64,000 nucleotides of DNA from Brachybacterium aquaticum (lineage in GTDB: Bacteria > Actinomycetota > Actinomycetes > Actinomycetales > Dermabacteraceae), in the NCBI RefSeq assembly GCF_014204755.1, contig NZ_JACHLZ010000001.1, positions 3,162,001 to 3,226,000 of the forward strand, in the 5' to 3' direction. Under the pieces are notes generated by a model. That model saw only the letters and a program-made list of their open reading frames with translations. It was not told the DNA's origin and did no database searches. Positions 32,679-43,341 of the stretch are shown here, one piece after another; position 1 is the first letter of the stretch; every line of letters starts with the position of its first letter. The translations under genes were made by a program, and so were the position numbers.

Positions 32679-34601
32679 GTGACCTCCAGTTCCCTCGCGG
32701 TGCCACGCGCCCGGCTCGACGACCTCGTCACCGGCGAGGTGCTGCAGTTCGAGCGCTTCACGCGCGAGATCCGCGCCGAGCGGCCCGAGGAGGTGCGCCC
32801 GGCGCTCGCCGAGATCGAGCAGGCCGTCGCCGCGGGCTCCTGGGCGGTGGTGATGCTCGCCTACGAGGCCGCCGCCGGGCTCGACCCGCAGGCGCAGACG
32901 CACCCCGGCGACGGGAGCGTGCCGCTGGTGTGGGCAGGGATCGCCGACGGCCCCGACCCGCACCCCGCCCCGCTCACCCCCGCCGGCGGCTACGCGCTCG
33001 AGCCCTGGCGCCCCGACTGGTCCCGCGCCGAGCACGCCGACCGCATCGCCGCCGTCCGCGGCGCGATCGCCAAGGGGGACACCTACCAGACGAACCTCAC
33101 CACCCGCCTGCGCTCGCAGCTCACCGGCGATCCGTACGGGCTGTACGGGGACCTCGCCCGCCGCCAGCGCGGCGCCCACCACGCCTACCTCGACCTGGGC
33201 GACGCCGTGATCGTCAGCGCGAGCCCCGAGACCTTCCTGACCTGGGACGGCGAAGAGGTCACCACCGCCCCCATGAAGGGCACCGCCGTGCGCACCGGCG
33301 ACCCCGCCCGCGACCGCGCCGCCCGGGAGGCGCTGGTGGGCGGGGAGAAGGACCGCGCCGAGAACGTCATGATCGTGGACCTGCTGCGCAACGACCTCGC
33401 CCGCATCAGCGAGCCAGGCAGCGTCCAGGTCACCGAGCTGCTCGGTGTGGAGGAGTACCCGACAGTGCTCCAGCTGGTCTCGCGCCTGCGCGCCCGCACC
33501 CGGCCCGGCACCGGGCTGGTGGACGTGCTCGCGGCGATGTTCCCGTGCGGGTCCATCACCGGCGCCCCGAAGCTGTCCACGATGGAGCTGATCACCCGCC
33601 TCGAGGACTCCCCGCGCGGCGTGTACTGCGGCGCGATCGGTGTGGTGGCCCCCGGTGACAGGCCCCGGGCGCGCTTCTCCGTCGCGATCCGCACCGTGGT
33701 GCAGGATCGGGCCGACGGCACCGCCGTCTACGGCGCCGGAGGCGGCATCACCTGGGGGTCCACGGCCGACGGCGAGTACGACGAGCTCCTCGCGAAGGCC
33801 GCCGTGCTGCCGGTGGGGGAGCGCGAGCCCTTCGCGCTGCTGGAGACGATCGCCGTGCATGAGGGGCACGCCCGGCACCTCGAGCACCACCTGCGCCGGC
33901 TGCGGGCCTCGGCCGCGCACTTCCGGATCGCGGTGGACGAGGAGTCGCTCACCGCGGCGCTGGCACGGCTCGCCTCCCTGGACGGTGCCCAGCTGGTGCG
34001 GCTGCGACTGCGCCGGGACGGCAGCTGCGCCGCGGAGCCGCGCCCGCTCACCGCCGCGCCGGAGCCGGTGCTCCTCGCCGTCGACGACCAGCTCACCGAC
34101 ATCCCCACCGAGCTCAGCGCGCACAAGACCACCGTGCGCGACCACTTCGTCGCGGCGCGCGCCCGCCACCCGCAGGCCGACGACGTGATCCTCCGCGGCG
34201 TCCACGGGCGGCTGGTGGAGACCACCATCGCGTCCCTGGCTCTGCGCCTGGACGGCACCTGGTGCACGCCGCCGCTGGCCGACGGCTGCCTGGACGGGGT
34301 GGGGCGACGCCTCGCGCGCGAGGACGGGACGCTCGTGGAGCGAGAGCTCACCGTGGCGGACCTGCACCGGGCCGAGGAGATCGCGCTGCTCAGCTCCGCC
34401 CGCGGGTGGCGACGGGCCGTGCTCGCGGCGGACTGGATCAGGCCGCGGTCCGACACCAGGTGTGGTCGGCCCCGAGAGGAATCGTCGTCACCGTCGAAGT
34501 GCTTGGGCGGGATCAATGCGACTGGCGCGAAGCGCGGGGACCGTTCCGGCGATCACTCCGATGAGCACCGCAGCCAGAGGTGCGGAGAGGAGGAGTCGTA
34601 G
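32679..34601 (+). CDS. pabB: PabB-PabC fusion: aminodeoxychorismate synthase component I / lyase
   Basis: 640 codons from GTG 32679. Residues ~60-390 are a chorismate-binding domain (SASPETFLTWDGEEVTTAPMKGT, MIVDLLRNDLARI, PCGSITGAPKLSTMELI); residues ~390-590 are a class IV aminotransferase-like lyase domain (LLETIAVHEGHARHLEHHLRRL, VHGRLVETTIASLALR). It supplies p-aminobenzoate for folate. Similarity should end soon after SSARGWRRAVLAADW; the last ~50 codons (about 34440-34601) are unrelated, run into lower-GC DNA antisense to the permease gene and end in TAG. The native 3' end was probably replaced when the adjoining island arrived. Confidence 0.87.
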   Translation: MTSSSLAVPRARLDDLVTGEVLQFERFTREIRAERPEEVRPALAEIEQAVAAGSWAVVMLAYEAAAGLDPQAQTHPGDGSVPLVWAGIADGPDPHPAPLTPAGGYALEPWRPDWSRAEHADRIAAVRGAIAKGDTYQTNLTTRLRSQLTGDPYGLYGDLARRQRGAHHAYLDLGDAVIVSASPETFLTWDGEEVTTAPMKGTAVRTGDPARDRAAREALVGGEKDRAENVMIVDLLRNDLARISEPGSVQVTELLGVEEYPTVLQLVSRLRARTRPGTGLVDVLAAMFPCGSITGAPKLSTMELITRLEDSPRGVYCGAIGVVAPGDRPRARFSVAIRTVVQDRADGTAVYGAGGGITWGSTADGEYDELLAKAAVLPVGEREPFALLETIAVHEGHARHLEHHLRRLRASAAHFRIAVDEESLTAALARLASLDGAQLVRLRLRRDGSCAAEPRPLTAAPEPVLLAVDDQLTDIPTELSAHKTTVRDHFVAARARHPQADDVILRGVHGRLVETTIASLALRLDGTWCTPPLADGCLDGVGRRLAREDGTLVERELTVADLHRAEEIALLSSARGWRRAVLAADWIRPRSDTRCGRPREESSSPSKCLGGINATGAKRGDRSGDHSDEHRSQRCGEEES

Positions 34602-35687
34602 ATCTATGACCGGGACCCAGCCCTGAGCAGCGCAGACTGCAAGAACCGTGATGGTAGCGAGGACGAGGCCCAGCAGCCCTCCAGCGAGCCCGACGACGCC
34701 GCTTTCGGCGATGAACTGGACTCCGATCTGCGAGCGGCGTGCACCGAGAGACCGACGCAACCCGATCTCGCCGATCCGAGAGGCGACACCTCCCATCGCC
34801 TGGGCGGCCACGACGATGGCGCCGACGAGGGCAGCCAATGCGCTTGCCCCGAGCCCGAGTCGGATGATCAGAGAGTCGACGTCGCCCCGCAATCCGGAGC
34901 CCGTACCGACGGCGGTGACCTGGAGCAGCTCGGGGTGGTAAGGATCCAGGACCATCGGAAGAGCGTCTGCGACGGCCGAGGCTGCGCCATCGTCGGCAGC
35001 AACGACGAGGGAACTCGGCGGCATTGCAGCGAGTGACCGGAGCGGGGCGTCCGTGGGGACGAGGACTCCCACGGTCAGCGCCTCCATTCGTGGACTGGAC
35101 TCGATCACGCCGATGATCGTCACGGCGTCGCCATCGAGGAACAGGGAGCGACTGCCGAACTCCTCCGGACGCAGATCGATCTCGTCAGCAAGGCTTCGAC
35201 CGATCACCGCCACAGGCAGCGCCGGATCCACCCCGGTCAAGGAACGACCGCTGACACGAGCATCGACGGTGTCGAGGAAGCCCGCATCGGAGGCGAACAC
35301 CGGGACCCGGTGCCCGAGTGCGGACTCGCGCACGCTCGAGGTGGCCACGGAGATGCCTGCCGAAGAAGCATCGATGTATCGGGCGGCTCTCCGCACTCCC
35401 GTGAGGGACGCCGCGCGTGCGACGTGCTCCGGGGTGAGGGACTGGTCTGCGCCGCTGGTGTCGGGCTGCGTCGTGGCGTGCACAGTTGACGCGGCATAGG
35501 CGTCGAAGTTGTCAGAGACCTGGAATCGCACGGTGCTGACGAGTGAGTTCACCGTGATGACGAGGGTGACGGCAAGGGCGAGGGCGATGACGGCGACGGC
35601 GCTTCGGGCCGGGTCGCCACGTACGGCGGAAACAGCTTCGGCGACGGAAGGTCGGGGAGAGGCGTGCAGTTCCCGGGTTCGGATCAT
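34488..35687 (-). CDS. MacB/FtsX-type ABC transporter permease
   Basis: 399 residues. One TM near the N-terminus (AVAVIALALAVTLVITVNSL), a large extracytoplasmic MacB-core domain of about 200 residues, then three C-terminal TMs with the FtsX motif GEIGLRRSLGARRSQIGVQF between the first two and the end PALRASRIDPAQALRR. This architecture belongs to mechanotransmission-type ABC systems that move substrates from the outer side rather than across the membrane, including peptide export and antimicrobial-peptide resistance. It overlaps the ATPase gene by 4 bases. Last gene of the island operon; its 3' end overlaps the pabBC read-through tail. Confidence 0.9.
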   Translation of the reverse strand: MIRTRELHASPRPSVAEAVSAVRGDPARSAVAVIALALAVTLVITVNSLVSTVRFQVSDNFDAYAASTVHATTQPDTSGADQSLTPEHVARAASLTGVRRAARYIDASSAGISVATSSVRESALGHRVPVFASDAGFLDTVDARVSGRSLTGVDPALPVAVIGRSLADEIDLRPEEFGSRSLFLDGDAVTIIGVIESSPRMEALTVGVLVPTDAPLRSLAAMPPSSLVVAADDGAASAVADALPMVLDPYHPELLQVTAVGTGSGLRGDVDSLIIRLGLGASALAALVGAIVVAAQAMGGVASRIGEIGLRRSLGARRSQIGVQFIAESGVVGLAGGLLGLVLATITVLAVCAAQGWVPVIDLRLLLSAPLAAVLIGVIAGTVPALRASRIDPAQALRR

Positions 35688-36373
35688 TGCATGTCATCCG
35701 AAACACTCTGACCGTCGATGATCTCGATGACGCGATCGGCACGTTCGGCGACAGCAGGATCGTGGGTGACGGTGATGCGCGAGGACTCGTCAGTGCGCAA
35801 CGAGTCCAGGAGATCCAGGATCTGAGCGCCGCGGGCGCTGTCGAGATTTCCGGTTGGTTCATCGGCGAGCAGCAGTCGGGGTCGGTGCACCACGGCGCGA
35901 GCAATCGCCACTCGCTGCGCTTCGCCGCCGGAGAGGTCACTGCAGCGTGCATTGCGCCGGGCGTCGAGTCCGACTGCGCTCACGGCGTCGCGGACGCGGT
36001 GTGTGGTGATCGCACGTGTTCGTGTGGTGTAGCGAAGCCCGAGGGCCACGTTCTGCAGGACGGTGCGGTACGGGATCAGGTGGAACGATTGAAAGATGAA
36101 TCCGAGCTCTTGGCCGCGGAGTCGCGAGAGCTCGTCGTCCCCGAGGTTGCTGATGTCCTGGCCGTCGAGCAGGACACGACCACGGGTCGGGGTGTCGAGC
36201 AAGCCCAACATATTCAGTGCAGTCGACTTTCCTGCACCGCTTGGGCCGATCAAAGCCACACTCTCACCAGCGTGCACGCGGAGGTCGAGACCCCGCAGGG
36301 CGTCTACCTGCGGTGGTCCGGCGAAGGAGCGGTGTACGCCGTCGAGAGCTATCACCGGCGCAGCGGTGATCAC
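35684..36373 (-). CDS. ABC transporter ATPase (MacB/LolD type)
   Basis: 229 residues. Walker [11 protein letters not shown]-loop [21 protein letters not shown], signature [16 protein letters not shown], Walker [14 protein letters not shown] and switch His in [13 protein letters not shown] are all intact. The sequence around the signature and the [10 protein letters not shown] block is characteristic of the LolD/MacB family that pairs with FtsX-like permeases. Four-base overlaps with both neighbours indicate translational coupling. Confidence 0.94.
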
Positions 36374-37638
36374 GAGCCATCCCCGTCACCCGCGTCATCA
36401 CTGGCCGGCGAGGTGCCGCGTTCCGATTGCGCGACGATCACCTCTGCGCCCTCCGGAGGGGCGGTGCCCTCATCGAGCACTGCGGCACCGTCGATGACCT
36501 CACGGACCACGACGGGGTGACGTTCGGGCAGCGCCGTCTCGTCGTTCGCGCGCTCCGGGGCGAGAAGCACATAGTCAGAACCGGAGGAGTCGCTGCGCAC
36601 CGCGCCGATCGGCACGACGAGGACGGCGCCATCGGTGGAAGCGGTCACGACCTCGGCTCGGGCGTCACGGCCCACGGCGTCGGCCGGAAGGGCGGTGTCG
36701 GGGGTGATGAAGATCGACGAAAGATCGGGGTTGTCTGGGTCGCTCTCTACGCCGCTCACCGTGCCGGTGAGTTCACCATCCTGGTCCTGCACCGTGAAGG
36801 TGACGGACTGTCCCTCGGTGACGTTCGCAGCCTGGACCGTAGAGATCGACGCAGTGACGACGAGTGGACCGTTGGTGACGCTCATAAGCGTAGAGGTCTC
36901 GTCCAGCGGATCGCCCACGGAAACGCCCACGTCGACTATGGACACCGGAAGATCTGTCATCACCACGAAGAGGCTCCGCGGGACCAGCAGCGGGGCGGAA
37001 TCACCTCCTGACGCCGAGGATTCCCTCCCTTCGTCGGCGCTTCCGTCGTAGAGAAGATCCGGGGGATACCCGGCATCGCGCAACAGGTGCTCAAGCGCTC
37101 GCTGGGTGGAGGACCGGAGTTCCCCATCAAGCTCTCCCGGAGAGTAGCCAGCTTGCTCGAGACCCTTCTGCAACTGGGCGACGTCTTCGCCGGTGTCTCC
37201 GAGAGTGAGATCCCGGTAGAACGGGAAAGCCCCGGATATGGCGAAGACAGGATATCCCGAAATTTCGGCAAGGAACATCCCCGGATCGACGTTTTCTCCG
37301 CGTTTCATGTTCGACTTCACCAACACCGACGCCGAACCATCCTGCGGGAGCGCAGGACGGACAGCGATGGTGTCTGAGTTCTCCACGGCGCCGGTGAGGG
37401 TGACCGTCTGCTGCCTCTCCTCTCGCAACACAGGAGCGGTCACTGTGAGCGGCTCCAGCGGTGACGCTGCTGCCGCGCGCTGCTCCGGGGTGGCCATCTG
37501 CGATCGGAGTACCACGTATCCGAGGCCGAGGCCGAGCATGATGCCGACGGTGAGGACCACCGCGAGGACGACGACGGAGCGGCGCGGGGTGAAGACGCCC
37601 CGTTCCGCCTGCTCGGGCCGATCAGCCTTGGATGGCAT
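36370..37638 (-). CDS. HlyD-like adaptor with peptidoglycan-binding domain
   Basis: 422 residues. An N-terminal TM anchor (SVVVLAVVLTVGIMLGLGLGYVVL, about residues 20-43), a periplasmic-adaptor-like beta region (PLTVTAPVLREERQQTVTLTG), a PG_binding_1 domain (LGDTGEDVAQLQKGLEQAGY, about residues 150-205) and a C-terminal barrel region. In monoderm actinobacteria such proteins partner MacB-type pumps in the cell wall. Start ATG 37638 (MPSKADRPEQ) overlaps the lipoprotein stop by 17 bases; a longer in-frame start is less likely. Confidence 0.85.
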   Translation of the reverse strand: MPSKADRPEQAERGVFTPRRSVVVLAVVLTVGIMLGLGLGYVVLRSQMATPEQRAAAASPLEPLTVTAPVLREERQQTVTLTGAVENSDTIAVRPALPQDGSASVLVKSNMKRGENVDPGMFLAEISGYPVFAISGAFPFYRDLTLGDTGEDVAQLQKGLEQAGYSPGELDGELRSSTQRALEHLLRDAGYPPDLLYDGSADEGRESSASGGDSAPLLVPRSLFVVMTDLPVSIVDVGVSVGDPLDETSTLMSVTNGPLVVTASISTVQAANVTEGQSVTFTVQDQDGELTGTVSGVESDPDNPDLSSIFITPDTALPADAVGRDARAEVVTASTDGAVLVVPIGAVRSDSSGSDYVLLAPERANDETALPERHPVVVREVIDGAAVLDEGTAPPEGAEVIVAQSERGTSPASDDAGDGDGS

Positions 37639-38419
37639 CTGCAATGACGACGAGATCGTCGTGGTGCTGCTCGATGTACTCGGCACGATCATCAGCGACG
37701 ATCTCTGCTTGAGCTTCCGTAAGAGGCGTAAGACAGTCAGCGAAGATCCGTCCGCCTCGGAGGTTCTCTTCCTCGGTCATAGCCGCCTCGCCTCCGTGCT
37801 GATCAGGCCACCAATACAGGAACTCGTAGATCGTCACCGAAGTCCCTGCATCAGTCTGTCCACCGGGAAACCCTGTCTCCTTGAACAGGCATGTCTCGAA
37901 TTCTGCAAACTCCGACGGCAAACGCGACGGATCGGCCGTCAACTCCACTTTCGAAGTCCATTCCGAGTGAAGAGAATCGAAAAACGAGACCGCTTGGTTC
38001 TGCTGGCCCCGCGTCGCATCGAAATAGCACTGGAGTGTTGCGTCGTTCGCCGAAAGTTCGGCGTCAGGAATCCCGTTCAATGTACCTGCGGGCCTCACTC
38101 CGCCGTTCCGGTATCGATCCGGATCAGGGAAGGCGAACTCGTTCATTTCCTCATGGTATGCGACGTAGTCGCTTGCTCTGGCGACCGCATCTGCGCGCCC
38201 CGCATCTTCTAAGCAGTCTTCGATGTCGGGCATGAGTGTCGCCCTGAGCTGATTGCGGAGCCAGACCGGATCTTTGTAGGCGCCTTCGCCCGGCGAGGTG
38301 ACGACCGCATTAACTATACGTGCGTCCAGCTCCCTGTTTCCGGGATCAGGGCTTCCACACGCTGACAGTGTGAGCGCTGTAAGAACCACCGCAGGCCAGA
38401 CCGAATTCCGCCACTGCAT
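37622..38419 (-). CDS. lipoprotein of unknown function in the island operon
   Basis: 265 residues from ATG 38419, preceded by GGAGG at 10 bases. Signal peptide MQWRNSVWPAVVLTALTLSAC with lipobox LSAC, so membrane-anchored outside the cell. The mature part has four Cys (in DIEDCLEDAG, LQCYFDATRG, FETCLFKET, FADCLTPLT) that could form two disulfides. No family recognised. It lies between the small secreted protein gene and the transporter genes and overlaps the latter; an immunity or substrate-binding role is possible but unproven. Codon use is clearly less GC-biased than the backbone. Confidence 0.75.
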   Translation of the reverse strand: MQWRNSVWPAVVLTALTLSACGSPDPGNRELDARIVNAVVTSPGEGAYKDPVWLRNQLRATLMPDIEDCLEDAGRADAVARASDYVAYHEEMNEFAFPDPDRYRNGGVRPAGTLNGIPDAELSANDATLQCYFDATRGQQNQAVSFFDSLHSEWTSKVELTADPSRLPSEFAEFETCLFKETGFPGGQTDAGTSVTIYEFLYWWPDQHGGEAAMTEEENLRGGRIFADCLTPLTEAQAEIVADDRAEYIEQHHDDLVVIADAIQG

Positions 38420-38469
38420 GCTTCGAACCTCCGACGGTGCGATCGAACGCGATTGCCGTATGAAAGCAT

Positions 38470-38867
38470 TCACACACGAAGGTCAAACCGCGTATTGACG
38501 TCCGAGTTGATGCGGAACTTCGATCCGGAGGCAAGATTCTTGATGGCTACCCATTGGCTTTGAGAAAATCCCCAAGTGTGCTTCTTGGAGCCCATGATCG
38601 AGTTGTGCCAAACGCCGTTCGATTGATACTGTCCCCAGCTAGTCACATACGGTGTGAGTGCGGGGAAATAAACGCGATTTACGTTGACGTCAAGGCAATC
38701 GCTACCAACGGCTTCGTTCGGGCTTCACGCGTATCGACACTATTCATCGAAACGCAATTTGCTGCAGAGCTGGGCGTAGCGTTGGTGGCCTGGACTACAC
38801 CGATGAGCCCAAAGGTGATCAGCCCGATCGCCAGGAGTCGCGGGATCCGGTCTTTGACCGTGAACAT
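38470..38867 (-). pseudogene. small secreted protein, first gene of the island operon, apparent frameshift
   Basis: From ATG 38867 (preceded by AGGGGG) the frame encodes a signal peptide (MFTVKDRIPRLLAIGLITFG) with likely cleavage after ATNA or SSAA, then stops early at 38679. A second frame starting within the same stretch continues with protein-like sequence (DCLDVNVNRVYFPALTPY, SNGVWHNSIMGSKKHTWGF, FRINSDVNTRFDLRV) to a TGA at 38470-38472. Adding one base in the GGG at 38720-38722 (CCC on the coding strand) joins them into about 132 residues. Aromatic-, Asn- and Ser-rich mature part with two Cys. No family recognised. Position ahead of a dedicated export-type operon suggests a secreted peptide or bacteriocin-like factor. 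Confidence 0.6.
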
Positions 38868-39236
38868 GGGTCCCCCTAGGTTGATGTGGTAAAAGTCGCC
38901 TCCAAGGCTTTTCCCTCCGAAGGCTACAGCGGCGCAGTGTGGGTCCTGCCCGTTCACAGGAACCGTTACAGTTTAGTTATCTGGATCTTCAGAGCTGAGT
39001 GTGGGCGCGCCGGTGGCGCGGGATGGCTGGGGATAGGCGTCGAGGTCCTCGATGATGAGTGGACTCTAACCTCGATCTTTCACGGGGTAGGCCGGTCAGC
39101 TCGGTCGGCGTCGTCGCCGATGTTCGCAGCTGATTCTGGCATCGGGGTGTGACGGTCCGCCGCGTGTCGGTCGCGGTGGTCGGGCGTCCAGTGCCTGTGG
39201 TCCTCGGGGAGTGCTGTCAGCGGCGAGATCATGTGG
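38868..39236. other. 369-base gap between island operon and IS1380 remnant
   Basis: No gene seen. It should contain the promoter of the leftward operon; an AT-rich stretch near 38966-38985 (GTTACAGTTTAGTTATC) is the best candidate. Near 39064-39088 the sequence CTCTAACCTCGATC followed by TTTCACGGGG may be the outer end of the IS1380-type element, judged only by its position. Confidence 0.4.
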
Positions 39237-39737
39237 CTATCCAGCGGGGGCGGGGAGTTGGACGTGGCGGGCGTGGCCTGCCAGGACGATCTCGGCCCAG
39301 CGCGAACGGTCCGAGACGTGGAGGACCTGCTGACGGGCATGCCGTGCGATGCTCGCGGGGATCTGGAACAGGCGGTGGCGCACGCGCTTTGGCTCCCACC
39401 GCCGGGCGGGCTGGTCGGTGTAGCCGAGCAGCCCCATCCAGGCAGTGATCTCGCTGGCCAGGCCCACGATCTGGCACCAGATCCGGTTCTGCGCGAACGA
39501 TGTCAGAGGCAGGTTCCGCAGGCCCATGTCCTTCGCAGCCCGAATCCGGCCCTCGCAGCGAGCACGCCGACGGTGACGGACTTCGAGGTCCGCCAGCTGA
39601 CCCTGCGTCGTGTTGGTCGCAAACGCGGTCAAACGGTATCCCTCGACGTCGTCGAACCGCAGCTGCGCCCCGGGATGAGGACGCTCGCGACGGACGATGA
39701 CACGCATCCCCGCAGGCCACTCCTCGTCAAGGTCGGG
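39237..39737 (-). pseudogene. IS1380-family transposase, C-terminal remnant
   Basis: About 166 codons of a DDE transposase: MRVIVRRERPHPGAQLRF, ADLEVRHRRRARCEGRI, AKDMGLRNLP, FAQNRIWCQIVGLASEITAW and ARRWEPKRVRHRL are the C-terminal blocks of IS1380-type transposases. The reading frame opens with a TGA (39738-39740) exactly where the IS256-type element begins, so the N-terminal two thirds are missing and are not found on the far side of that element. Confidence 0.8.
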
Positions 39738-39740
39738 TCA

Positions 39741-39762
39741 AGTCCCGGGAAGTGGTGTAGCG
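39741..39762 (+). repeat. left terminal inverted repeat of the IS256-type element
   Basis: AGTCCCGGGAAGTGGTGTAG plus CG. Its reverse complement begins CGCTACACCACT and ends CGGGACT, like the right end. Confidence 0.8.
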
Positions 39763-39786
39763 GTCGGATCCTTCGGTGTGGGTGGT

Positions 39787-40974
39787 TCAGGCGGTCAGGG
39801 CGGGGGTCGTGTGGTCTGGGGTAGTCACCTCCTGGACGGTGGTCTCGGTGGCGATGAGGTGGAGCTGGGAGCGGCGGAGGACGTCGAGGCCGAGGTAGCG
39901 ACGACCCTCGAGCCATTCATCGGTCTGCTCGGCCAGGACCGCGCCGACGAGGCGGATGATCGCGTCGCGATGGGGGAAGATCGAGACGGCGTCGGTGCGT
40001 CGTCGGATCTCGCGGTTGAGGCGCTCCTAGGGGTTGTTCGACCAGATCTGTCGCCAGATCTCCTTGGGAAACGCGGTGAACGCCAGCAGGTCCTCCCGTA
40101 CGGCGGCGAGGTGGTCGGCGACCTCGGGCAGACGCTCGCTGGTCTGTTCCAGCAGCCGGTCGAACTGATCGTTCACGGACGCCGCGTCGGGCTGGTCGAA
40201 GACCGCGTGCAGACCGGCCTTCACCGCGGGCCAGGCCGCCTTGGGGCAGACGCTCATCAGGTTCGCCGCGTAGTGGGTGCGGCATCGCTGCCAGGCGGTG
40301 CCGGGCAGGTTCGCCGCGATTGCCTCGACCAGTCCCCGGTGGGCGTCAGAGGTCACCAGGCGCACCCCGGTCAGGCCGCGAGCGACGAGGTCGGCGAAGA
40401 ACGTGTTCCACGCTGCGGCGGTCTCGCTGGTCGCAACCTGCATACCGAGCACCTCGCGGTGCCCGTCGTTGTTCACCCCGGTTGCGACCAGCACGACAGC
40501 ATTGATCACGCGCCCGCCCTCGCGGACCTTCATCGTCAGAGCGTCCGCGGCGACGAACGTGAAGGGACCGGCCTCGCCGAGCGGGCGGTGGCGGAAGGTC
40601 TTGACCTGTTCGTCGAGCTCGCCAGCCATGCGGGAGACCTGGGAGCGGGAGAGCCCGTCGATGCCGAGGGTCTTGACGAGCTTATCCATGCGGCGGGTCG
40701 AGACGCCGGCGAGATAGCAGTCCGCGACCACGGTGATCAGCGCGGCCTCGGCTCGCTTTCGTCGTTCGAGCAGCCAGTGGGGGAAGTAGCTGCCCGTGCG
40801 GAGCTTGGGCACGGCCACGTCGATCGTGCCGACGCGGGTGTCGAGCTCGCGGTGGCGGTAGCCGTTGCGCTGGGCGGTCCGGGACTGGCTGGCCTGGCCG
40901 TACTCGGCGCCGGCGACGAGGTCGGCGTCCGCGGAAAGCAGCACGTTGATGGTGTTCTGAAGCAGGTCACGCAT
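39787..40974 (-). pseudogene. IS256-family mutator transposase, internal amber
   Basis: Mutator-type DDE transposase. The frame from ATG 40974 reads MRDLLQNTINVLLSADADLV, AQRNGYRHRELDTRVG, FVAADALTMKVREGGR (first catalytic Asp region), LVTSDAHRGLVEAI and WQRCRTHYAANLM. At 40027-40029 the codon is TAG, after WRQIWSNNP; the frame then resumes with [18 protein letters not shown] and [10 protein letters not shown] to TGA 39787-39789. Homologues have NNPQERLN or similar, so CAG to TAG is likely. The usual N-terminus (APHIVDPHGLLSHALSEASP) is also present upstream of 40974 but begins with ATC instead of ATG. Probably dead. Confidence 0.88.
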
Positions 40975-41141
40975 CAGATCCGGTGATGCTTCGGACAGAG
41001 CGTGGCTGAGCAGGCCATGAGGGTCGACAATATGAGGAGCGGTCGTCGTGATGACTCCGTTCGAGAGAGCTTTGGTAGGTGAACTCGAAGGATCACACGG
41101 TGACCGCGTTCACGTCCGGGACGTTCACGACGAGGCCACCG

Positions 41142-41163
41142 CGCTACACCACTATGCGGGACT
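41142..41163 (+). repeat. right terminal inverted repeat of the IS256-type element
   Basis: CGCTACACCACTATGCGGGA plus CT; 19 of 22 positions match the left end in inverted orientation. Confidence 0.8.
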
Positions 41164-41271
41164 CAACTGCCAGTAACCGTGAACTGGCACTTCCCAGTCG
41201 CTCCCCAGGTAACGTGGATCACGCGGTCGGAGAAGCCCGCGCCGCTCAGCCAACCAGCCGGAGGATCACCG

Positions 41272-41958
41272 ATGATCACGAAGCCCCGCCGCCTCTTCGC
41301 AGCTCTCGCCGTCGCCACACTGTCGGCGGTATCGCTTGCCGCCCCCGCCAACGCCGAGGGGGGAACAAGCGCGCTCACCGCAGAGGAGCGAGCCGAGATC
41401 GAGCAGAACATGGACTCGCTTGGTATCGCCGATGCCACACAGCAACAGCTTGTCCAGAAGCTCGAGCGAGGCGAATTGCTCGACTCCTTCAATGTCGCTG
41501 CAGAGCCGATCGACACCATCCCCGTCGACCAGCCAGGCTTCGAAAGCACCATCTACGTCTATGAGGATGGATCTCGCACCAAATCTGACCTCGAGACAGG
41601 GGCCGAATCAGTAGACGGCATTACTACCAGGGGAATCACTGGCTGCACCACTAGCACGTTCAGTGGAGGCTCCAGTATGAGCGACTGCAAGGTGAAGGTC
41701 AGCACTATTCTCTACGTGGGACAGTTCAACGCGAACTATACTCTCGTCAACGGCGGCAACAGCTACATTTCCAAGGCTTACAACTGGGGCTGCGCCGGGT
41801 TCGGTTGTAACATCGAGAAGACCGGCATCGTCAAGAAGACGGCGGACCTGAACGGGCCGGCCAAGGCAGAGATGCGCGTTCAGGTGGGCGGACTTGGTGC
41901 CACCACGACCGGATATATTCAGCTATTCGTTAGGGGGTCCAGCGCATGGACAAACTGA
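41272..41958 (+). CDS. secreted protein of unknown function next to the IS
   Basis: 228 residues from ATG 41272, chosen because GGAGG lies at 41260-41264 and a clean signal peptide follows (ITKPRRLFAALAVATLSAVS, cleavage after ANA). The mature protein starts AEGGTSALTAEERAEIEQNM, has an amphipathic N-terminal helix region, then a region rich in Gly, Ser, Thr, Asn and Tyr with four Cys (GITGCTTSTFSG, MSDCKVKV, NWGCAGFGCNIEK). No catalytic motif. General resemblance to uncharacterised actinobacterial exported proteins only. It overlaps the following one-TM gene by 13 bases, so the two act together. Confidence 0.78.
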   Translation: MITKPRRLFAALAVATLSAVSLAAPANAEGGTSALTAEERAEIEQNMDSLGIADATQQQLVQKLERGELLDSFNVAAEPIDTIPVDQPGFESTIYVYEDGSRTKSDLETGAESVDGITTRGITGCTTSTFSGGSSMSDCKVKVSTILYVGQFNANYTLVNGGNSYISKAYNWGCAGFGCNIEKTGIVKKTADLNGPAKAEMRVQVGGLGATTTGYIQLFVRGSSAWTN

Positions 41959-42146
41959 TTGCCGAAGCTCCCCGGCTGTTCACCCCGGGGGTTGCAGAAA
42001 CACTTCCGATCATCGCGACGATTGTAATCGTGACTGCACTGGTTGGAGTGGCGGTTTTTATGATCGTGCGGCACCTCTTGCGGAAGGGTAGTTCCAAGCA
42101 GGTAAGGAATCCCGCCCCGCGCCCGGAGTCGTTCAGCAACCACTGA
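41946..42146 (+). CDS. small one-TM membrane protein coupled to the secreted protein
   Basis: 66 residues: a short N-terminus, one strong TM segment (TLPIIATIVIVTALVGVAVFMIV, about residues 19-41) and a basic tail (RHLLRKGSSKQVRNPAPRPE). ATG 41946 lies inside the end of the secreted-protein gene, so translation is coupled. Immunity protein, membrane tether or phage-like small protein are all possible; nothing in the sequence decides. Confidence 0.65.
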   Translation: MDKLIAEAPRLFTPGVAETLPIIATIVIVTALVGVAVFMIVRHLLRKGSSKQVRNPAPRPESFSNH

Positions 42147-42331
42147 GTGCCACTATTCGGCTGACGGCCTGGAGGTCTACTCCTGGTCGTCGGCCGAAGT
42201 GGGACTGGTGCACGGTTGGGTGACAGCTGGGGTTAGGTGTAGTTGGTCATGACGTTGTCGACGCCGGCGTGGAGGCGTGAGGCCGGGGGCACGGGGCCGG
42301 CAGGCCGCGGCATGCGGGCGGGTACGCCTGC

Positions 42332-43009
42332 TCAGCAGCACCCACCGCCCTCCTTCCCGCTGTCTTCCTGCACGAGCGCGGAGACCGGCTGCGCGCACGC
42401 CTCCCCGCGCCAGGCCTCCACTCCCTCGCGCACGGCGAAGACGGCGATGATCAGGGCGGCGACCGGATCTGCCCAGGACCAGCCCAGCAGGCTGTTGGCC
42501 ACCAGCCCCATCAGCACCGCGGCGGAGAGGTACGCGCAGATCAGCGTCTGCTTCGAGTCGGCGACCGCGCTCGCGGAGCCGAGCTCGCGGCCGGTGCGCC
42601 GCTCGAACAGGGAGAAGGCGGGCATCAGCACCACGCTCACGGCCGCCAGGGTGATGCCCACGGAAGAATGCTCCGCCGCGCCGGTGCCGAGCAGGGAGCG
42701 CAGCGCATCGATCGTGACGACGAGGGCGAGGGCGAAGAAGGCCACGGCGATCACCGGCAGGGCGATCCGCTCGCGCCGCTGCGGGTCGGGCCCGGCGAAC
42801 TGCCAGGCCACCGCCGCGGCGGAGAGCACCTCCACGATCGAGTCCAGACCGAAGCCGATCAGCGCGGAGGAGGACGCCGCACGCCCTGCGGCCAGCGCGA
42901 TCACTGCTTCGATGACGTTGTAGGTGATGGTCGCGGCGACCACCCAGCGGATCCGGCGCTGTAGGATGCGCCGACGGGCAGGCGTGAGTGCGGTGTGCGA
43001 CGTGCTCAT
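42332..43009 (-). CDS. CDF-like cation transporter, ArsR-linked
   Basis: 225 residues with about six TM segments. ALIGFGLDSIVEVLSAAAVAWQF carries the D-x-x-x-E type metal-site spacing of cation diffusion facilitators, and ASAVADSKQTLICAYLSAAVL matches the CDF AxxxDxxxD-type region in TM5. It ends in EGGGCC, a possible extra metal ligand. It lacks the long C-terminal cytoplasmic domain of classic CDFs. Its start overlaps the ArsR stop by 4 bases, so it is probably an efflux system induced by a thiophilic or divalent metal. Confidence 0.8.
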   Translation of the reverse strand: MSTSHTALTPARRRILQRRIRWVVAATITYNVIEAVIALAAGRAASSSALIGFGLDSIVEVLSAAAVAWQFAGPDPQRRERIALPVIAVAFFALALVVTIDALRSLLGTGAAEHSSVGITLAAVSVVLMPAFSLFERRTGRELGSASAVADSKQTLICAYLSAAVLMGLVANSLLGWSWADPVAALIIAVFAVREGVEAWRGEACAQPVSALVQEDSGKEGGGCC

Positions 43010-43341
43010 GCGCAGCGGCACTCCGCGCCGGTGCAGCAGTCGGGGTCGACCACGAGCGCGAGCTCCACGAGGCCCGAGAGGGCGTCGGCCACCTGCGGGT
43101 CGGCGAGCCGGTACCAGGTGTGTCGCCCCTCCCGCACTCCCTCGACCAGCCCGCAGCCGCGCAGGCAGGCGAGATGGTTCGACATCGTCTGCCGGGAGAC
43201 GCCGAGGGCGTCGGCGAGATCCGAGGGGAGCCCGGGGGCCTCCCGCAGCGCGAGCAGGGCGCGCGCCCGCGTCGCATCGGAGAGCGCGTGGCCCAGCCGG
43301 GCCAGCGACGCGGTATGGCTCAGGGTGACGGTCTCATGCAT
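43006..43341 (-). CDS. ArsR/SmtB-family metal-responsive repressor (CmtR-like)
   Basis: 111 residues. A winged HTH (LALREAPGLPSDLADALGVSRQTMSNHLACLRGCGLVEGVREGRHTWYRL) and a C-terminal Cys cluster DPDCCTGAECRCA. The HTH Cys in HLACLRGCG plus C-terminal cysteines resemble the CmtR-type Cd/Pb sites. First gene of a two-gene operon with the CDF-like transporter. Confidence 0.88.
   Translation of the reverse strand: MHETVTLSHTASLARLGHALSDATRARALLALREAPGLPSDLADALGVSRQTMSNHLACLRGCGLVEGVREGRHTWYRLADPQVADALSGLVELALVVDPDCCTGAECRCA

Follow-up and report, generated by a model that had tools for sequence, protein, structure and literature searches.

What does a short island of low GC (guanine plus cytosine) content beside the 3' end of pabB provide to Brachybacterium aquaticum? 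The island lies in a 64,000-nucleotide stretch of the genome (contig NZ_JACHLZ010000001.1, positions 3,162,001 to 3,226,000), which is referred to as the window and from whose first letter all positions are counted. Its minus strand carries a broken gene of a small secreted protein and encodes a cysteine-rich lipoprotein, a membrane-anchored adaptor, and the ATPase and permease of a MacB-type ATP-binding cassette (ABC) pump. The locus represents a degraded form of a cassette of actinobacteria for which the libraries searched have no family name. By analogy with known systems, the secreted protein may be an antagonist of other bacteria, the lipoprotein its immunity protein and the pump a means of protection, with the window strain having retained immunity only; a probability of roughly 0.45 is given to this reading. 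The original prediction, made from the sequence alone, had proposed a locus for production of and immunity to a secreted peptide. This kind of locus is favoured by the results presented here, while production by the strain is not, as the gene is broken, and the pump appears to be optional in the wider family.

The secreted-protein gene (38470-38867, minus strand) is frameshifted in the assembly. The signal peptide is encoded in a frame that starts at 38867 and comprises 62 amino acids before a stop at 38679, and the mature half (38724-38473, 84 amino acids) is open in a different frame. The gene ends 50 bases ahead of the lipoprotein gene. In the metagenomic homologue P0004 (132 amino acids), which shares 97% identity with the open mature piece over 93% of that piece, both halves lie in one frame. 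The single secreted protein that had been described at 38867-38470 therefore resulted from joining two frames; one open frame in this assembly is ruled out by the stop and the frame change, and P0004 shows that the gene is intact elsewhere. Since the gene is broken, the strain probably does not make the secreted protein, and the lipoprotein and the pump remain. The peptide belongs to a rare family, of which a profile search recovered P0004, the shorter and partial homologue P0005, and the Brevibacterium-type P0006 and no others; the mature piece is present in one of 47 genomes of the same taxonomic family, which is the window's own.

The remaining genes follow on the minus strand without internal stops and encode the lipoprotein (37622-38419, 265 amino acids), the adaptor (36370-37638, 422 amino acids), the ATPase (35684-36373, 229 amino acids) and the permease (34488-35687, 399 amino acids). 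Their coordinates and their overlaps of 17, 4 and 4 bases agree with the original prediction, so that four of the five packed genes proposed there are open and the fifth, the peptide gene, is not. The adaptor has a transmembrane (TM) anchor and a PG_binding_1 domain (PF01471, E 3.5e-06, above cut-off), and a HlyD-like barrel is weakly indicated (HlyD_D23, E 0.14 only). The ATPase is of the MacB/LolD type with Walker A, LSGGE, Walker B and THD motifs; its best NCBIfam profiles are MacB (205.7 bits), LolD (203.2 bits) and FtsE (198.2 bits), all below their equivalog cut-offs. The permease is of the MacB/FtsX type with four predicted TM segments according to hydropathy and matches the MacB_PCD domain (PF12704, E 8.7e-16) and PF02687 (E 3e-13), both above cut-off. 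Its nearest PDB chain is 5xu1_M (E 1.7e-12), a chain of the pneumococcal pump. A housekeeping function of these ABC genes is rejected, because the island is missing from the close same-genus genome G021, where its flanks adjoin, and because the adaptor is matched at E 0.001 in only 7 of the 47 family genomes, a number that includes the window's own. Among these seven, G006 and G040 possess separate cassettes (L050 and L051).

The lipoprotein has five cysteines, the lipobox residue Cys21 and Cys69, Cys131, Cys177 and Cys229, so that the earlier description as a lipoprotein holds and the count of four leaves out one residue. All five are invariant in 61 aligned sequences, and the four beyond the lipobox probably form two disulfides. 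An AF2 model of the protein is all-helical (predicted local distance difference test, pLDDT, 75; predicted template modelling score, pTM, 0.71) and has no convincing match among solved structures. A single-sequence search of 5.8 billion proteins yields three relatives with 92, 79 and 69% identity, one of which, P0003, is labelled 'unclassified Brachybacterium'; in the 47 family genomes, the same kind of search finds only the lipoprotein itself. In Pfam and NCBIfam, neither this lipoprotein nor the other members scanned have a family of note.

The wider lipoprotein family was reached through the neighbours of adaptor genes. When 17 lipoproteins, including 14 taken from the 20 adaptor-selected loci described below, were combined into a profile, hits at E 0.001 were obtained in 114 of the 396 genomes of the order that were searched, and in 78 of these the hit was better than 1e-5. 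A second profile, with 61 rows, has hits at E 1e-6 in 20 genomes of a phylum sample of 296, and other classes are among them. The window-type lipoprotein is joined to this family by the Brevibacterium sequence, by the cysteine pattern and by gene position; in one BLASTP comparison, the lipoprotein of a full Brevibacterium cassette matches it with E 6e-21. It is assigned to an actinobacterial family that is characterised by a lipobox cysteine and four invariant cysteines.

How closely is this family bound to the pump? Searching the order with the adaptor gives matches in 66 of the 396 genomes at E 1e-12, with 83 places listed, of which 20, mostly those with long alignments, were fetched with their flanks. 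A lipoprotein gene lies directly upstream of the adaptor in all 20, as judged with the profile that was built partly from these loci. When the 129 strongest lipoprotein places are considered, 50 of the 83 adaptor places have one within 1500 bp upstream, and if the initial set of 20 loci, the source of 14 profile members, is left aside, this still applies to 31 of 63. Identities of lipoproteins and adaptors are correlated (r 0.63, reached in 0 of 2000 permutations; 15 of the 20 loci), which shows a joint history and no particular function. A further 40 loci were picked for the lipoprotein. In 21 of them it directly precedes the adaptor, in two more (L106 and L107) if overlapping starts of open reading frames are allowed, and in L093 and L101 the pump is present in another order or orientation. 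In the other 15, no adaptor-ABC-MacB set is found beside the lipoprotein, and a secreted protein is still encoded in L090, L097, L117, L119, L123, L126 and L129. Occurrence of peptide and lipoprotein without the transporter genes had been named as an argument against a dedicated system, and it is found for a part of the family. The pair of secreted protein and lipoprotein looks like the core of the cassette, with the pump as a frequent, optional addition. As the secreted proteins bear Sec-like signal sequences (judged by eye and with a simple script) and occur without the pump, it is probably not needed for their export, and a dedicated peptide exporter is disfavoured. In some loci (L103, L104, L105, L125 and L170), three to five divergent lipoproteins are encoded in tandem beside the pump genes, with two before and three after them in L170.

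The nearest full cassettes are found in Brevibacterium gallinarum (L040) and B. luteolum (L041), in which a 122-amino-acid secreted protein is encoded before the lipoprotein. This protein has the motif KPS..C.DVN and later residues in common with P0004, at 24% identity. Many other cassettes encode a different small secreted protein at the same position, with precursors of about 110-170 residues. Among 28 such proteins, which were chosen by eye from candidates upstream of the relatives' lipoproteins, 18 match PF03995 (Inhibitor_I36, hereafter I36) and one has a PG_binding_1 domain; the 28-member profile also matches betagamma-crystallins of known structure. A test that was less selected than this hand-picked set started from the 117 places in the 396 genomes at which I36 exceeds its Pfam cut-off. 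A lipoprotein-family place (129 strongest) follows within 800 bp on the same strand in 20 of the 117, compared to about 0.01 expected under uniform placement. For the family, secreted and surface proteins are thus encoded side by side beyond chance. By eye, peptidoglycan-binding-like partners instead of the I36 fold are seen in L173 (5915-6430), L111 (8103-7678) and L043 (8940-8419).

The window is not the only locus in which the secreted-protein gene has decayed. In L057, L103 and L115, the respective sequence is present in two pieces in different frames beside an open lipoprotein gene. No peptide partner was detected in the lipoprotein arrays of L104, L125 and L170, and partners are found for only some lipoproteins in the arrays of L103 and L105. 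Such asymmetric decay is what loss of a toxin with retention of immunity predicts, without being proof of it. In a comparable case, some pneumococci that have no functional streptococcin B (scb) peptide retain the genes predicted for immunity and transport (PMC11796350, in excerpt).

Several known systems share parts of this architecture. In bacteria without an outer membrane, MacB-type pumps protect against own or foreign peptides, such as YknWXYZ against the SDP toxin, AS-48EFGH against enterocin AS-48, and the pneumococcal pump against LL-37 and lincomycin (PMC5985334, in excerpt). YknWXYZ of Bacillus and Spr0693-0695 of Streptococcus pneumoniae resemble the window locus in the combination of adaptor, ATPase and MacB-type permease and in the lack of an outer membrane. 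YknX has been reported to bind peptidoglycan (PMC5985334, in excerpt). The adaptor of the window differs by its PG_binding_1 domain. In contrast to both systems, the window has an upstream Cys-rich lipoprotein gene and a secreted-protein gene, and no further membrane-protein gene in the operon. Enterocin AS-48EFGH also combines a MacB-type ABC system with an adaptor and is needed against the cells' own peptide, which is a cyclic peptide of 70 residues; the excerpt mentions no such lipoprotein (PMC5985334).

Bacteriocins of the lactococcin 972 type have been proposed to be beta-sandwich proteins secreted via Sec, and their genes are accompanied by others with predicted roles in immunity and transport (PMC11796350, in excerpt). 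Their loci are like the window in that a Sec-secreted protein is followed by an ABC system, whose ATPase scores 196 bits against TIGR03608. Membership is rejected, as P0004 and P0005 have no match to a lactococcin 972 profile in Pfam or NCBIfam at an E limit of 10 and as the ATPase falls short of the 254.85 bits required for TIGR03608; the window also has an adaptor and a lipoprotein as extra components. LolCDE shares the MacB architecture, which in the window stands next to a lipoprotein gene. It is likewise rejected, with scores of 203.2 of the required 307.75 bits for LolD and 28.9 of 362.45 for LolC/E, and the window differs further by the missing outer membrane and the separate peptidoglycan-binding adaptor. 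The likeness to I36 proteins and betagamma-crystallins applies to the relatives' secreted proteins, whereas the window-type peptide has no PF03995 match. The cassette is not described in the titles and abstract openings that were listed by searches of open-licence PMC papers, a scope that leaves out subscription journals and preprints.

From the MacB-type protection pumps and the lactococcin 972 loci, we infer by analogy the roles of the secreted protein as antagonist and pump cargo, of the lipoprotein as its immunity protein, and of the pump in clearance. The small protein would be secreted via Sec and act on the envelope of competing bacteria. At the surface of the producer, it would be intercepted by the lipoprotein, which would sit on the membrane's outer face, and the pump, braced in the peptidoglycan via its adaptor, would clear it from the membrane, as has been proposed for YknWXYZ with the SDP toxin and for AS-48EFGH with enterocin AS-48. 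With a frameshifted secreted-protein gene and open lipoprotein and pump genes, the window strain would be immune and not a producer. An extension of this proposal, which is more doubtful and offered tentatively, is an undescribed interbacterial antagonism system shared by actinobacteria. Its weapons would be small proteins that are secreted via Sec and can replace one another (betagamma-crystallin/I36-like, peptidoglycan-binding, or of the window's family). Each of them would be neutralised by a four-Cys immunity lipoprotein on the outer face of the membrane, backed by a peptidoglycan-anchored MacB pump, and orphan lipoproteins would pile up in arrays after the decay of their partners.

Several results weigh against the proposed antagonism and immunity. 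P0004 and P0005 have no Pfam or NCBIfam match listed at an E limit of 10, the window peptide is tied to the I36-type neighbours by position only, and a structure model of the peptide failed (pLDDT 41). The window-type lipoproteins align to the rest of the family with an hhalign probability of 83% over 30 columns, which is weak to moderate, and the profiles that unite the two (A4 and A8) include the window sequence. No listed lipoprotein accompanies 33 of the 83 adaptor places, some of which are at contig edges, or 97 of the 117 I36 places, which means that I36 proteins also live elsewhere. The correlation of lipoprotein and adaptor identities may merely reflect shared descent, and L175 shows that lipoprotein and pump genes can break as well. 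In the pneumococcal example, strains without the peptide show no expression of the locus on their own, producers inhibit them, and the roles of the scb immunity and transport genes are unverified according to the paper (PMC11796350, in excerpt). Finally, extracytoplasmic function (ECF)-type sigma factor genes beside or near the cassettes of L042, L045 and L052 suit protection against outside agents as well.

Such protection is the main rival. Pump and lipoprotein would then serve detoxification during envelope stress by guarding against antimicrobial peptides made by others, and the secreted protein would be an accessory, such as a protease inhibitor or envelope binder, and no weapon. In addition to the sigma factor genes of these three loci, a response regulator gene about 2 kb from the L040 peptide gene and the naming of the I36 family for peptidase inhibitors agree with this explanation, as does the increased susceptibility of pneumococci to LL-37 and lincomycin upon loss of a MacAB-like operon (PMC5985334, in excerpt). 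The pairs of secreted protein and lipoprotein without a pump in the seven loci listed above do not fit it well, and loss of the secreted-protein gene with retention of the lipoprotein is odd for a jointly acting shield. Detoxification is considered less likely than antagonism with immunity.

A LolCDE-like release, in which the MacB-type ABC system lifts the neighbouring lipoprotein from the membrane and the peptidoglycan-binding adaptor passes it to the wall or the outside, with the secreted protein riding along, is improbable. It would account for the frequent vicinity of lipoprotein and pump (50 of 83 places) and is in line with the ATPase score of 203 bits to LolD and with the MacB architecture of LolCDE (PMC5985334, in excerpt). 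The LolD and LolC scores below cut-off and the lipoproteins that occur without a pump speak against it. To our knowledge, actinobacteria of this group also have no outer membrane. Even less can be said for peptide signalling, a further suggestion of the original prediction, with the secreted protein as pheromone, the lipoprotein as sensor and the ABC system as relay. Secreted protein, surface lipoprotein and ABC genes do occur together, and regulators are found near some loci, but the precursors are not short pheromones, and no sensor or regulator was seen to recur throughout the genes of the first 20 loci; signalling would be most surprising. That the frameshift in the window is a sequencing or assembly error and the strain a full producer is very improbable as well. 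It is known from one assembly, in which a small error would be enough, but this assembly is a single contig of 3.45 Mb rated 100% complete, the four downstream genes are open, and the same kind of break is seen in three other loci, each likewise known from one assembly.

If the proposed antagonism and immunity were true, a large set of unnamed secreted-protein and lipoprotein genes would obtain a job, a reason would be suggested for why MacB pumps of bacteria without an outer membrane carry peptidoglycan-binding adaptors, and folded antagonists secreted via Sec would form a new class whose partners can be tested. If detoxification were true, an accessory of such pumps would still have been named.

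The island itself spans about 7.8 kb (34453-42295) according to blastn against G021 and GC content. Positions 34452 and 42296 of the window map 15 bp apart in G021 (L155), with a flank identity of 91-97%. Stretches from two other same-genus genomes (L156 and L157) have no similarity to the island and differ beside it, too. The GC content is 0.640 for the island, 0.535 for the peptide region and 0.579 for the lipoprotein gene, compared to 0.717 for positions 1-34452 of the window, which confirms the low GC content noticed originally. The remnants of insertion sequences (IS) that had been seen beside the operon were also found, both on the minus strand. One is the C-terminal third of an IS1380-family transposase (39237-39707; NF033539, E 2.6e-34, profile positions 287-417 of 419, below cut-off), and the other an IS256-family transposase that is truncated C-terminally (40027-40974; NF033543, E 2.5e-86, profile positions 4-302 of 338). 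On the plus strand, the island encodes a second secreted protein of 228 amino acids (41272-41958), which has no family in a Pfam/NCBIfam scan and distant relatives in two other of 58 genomes searched. Its gene overlaps an open reading frame for a 66-amino-acid protein with one TM segment (41946-42146, plus strand), and the two may be another pair of secreted protein and membrane partner on the same island.

At the left border, pabB (32679-34601) is without its stop codon, with TGG where G021 has TAG, and its frame reads on into the island, antisense to the end of the permease gene. Directly to the right of the island, a CDF-type metal exporter and a CmtR/ArsR-type regulator are encoded at 42332-43341, a stretch that aligns in G021 and is not found at the same place in L156 and L157.

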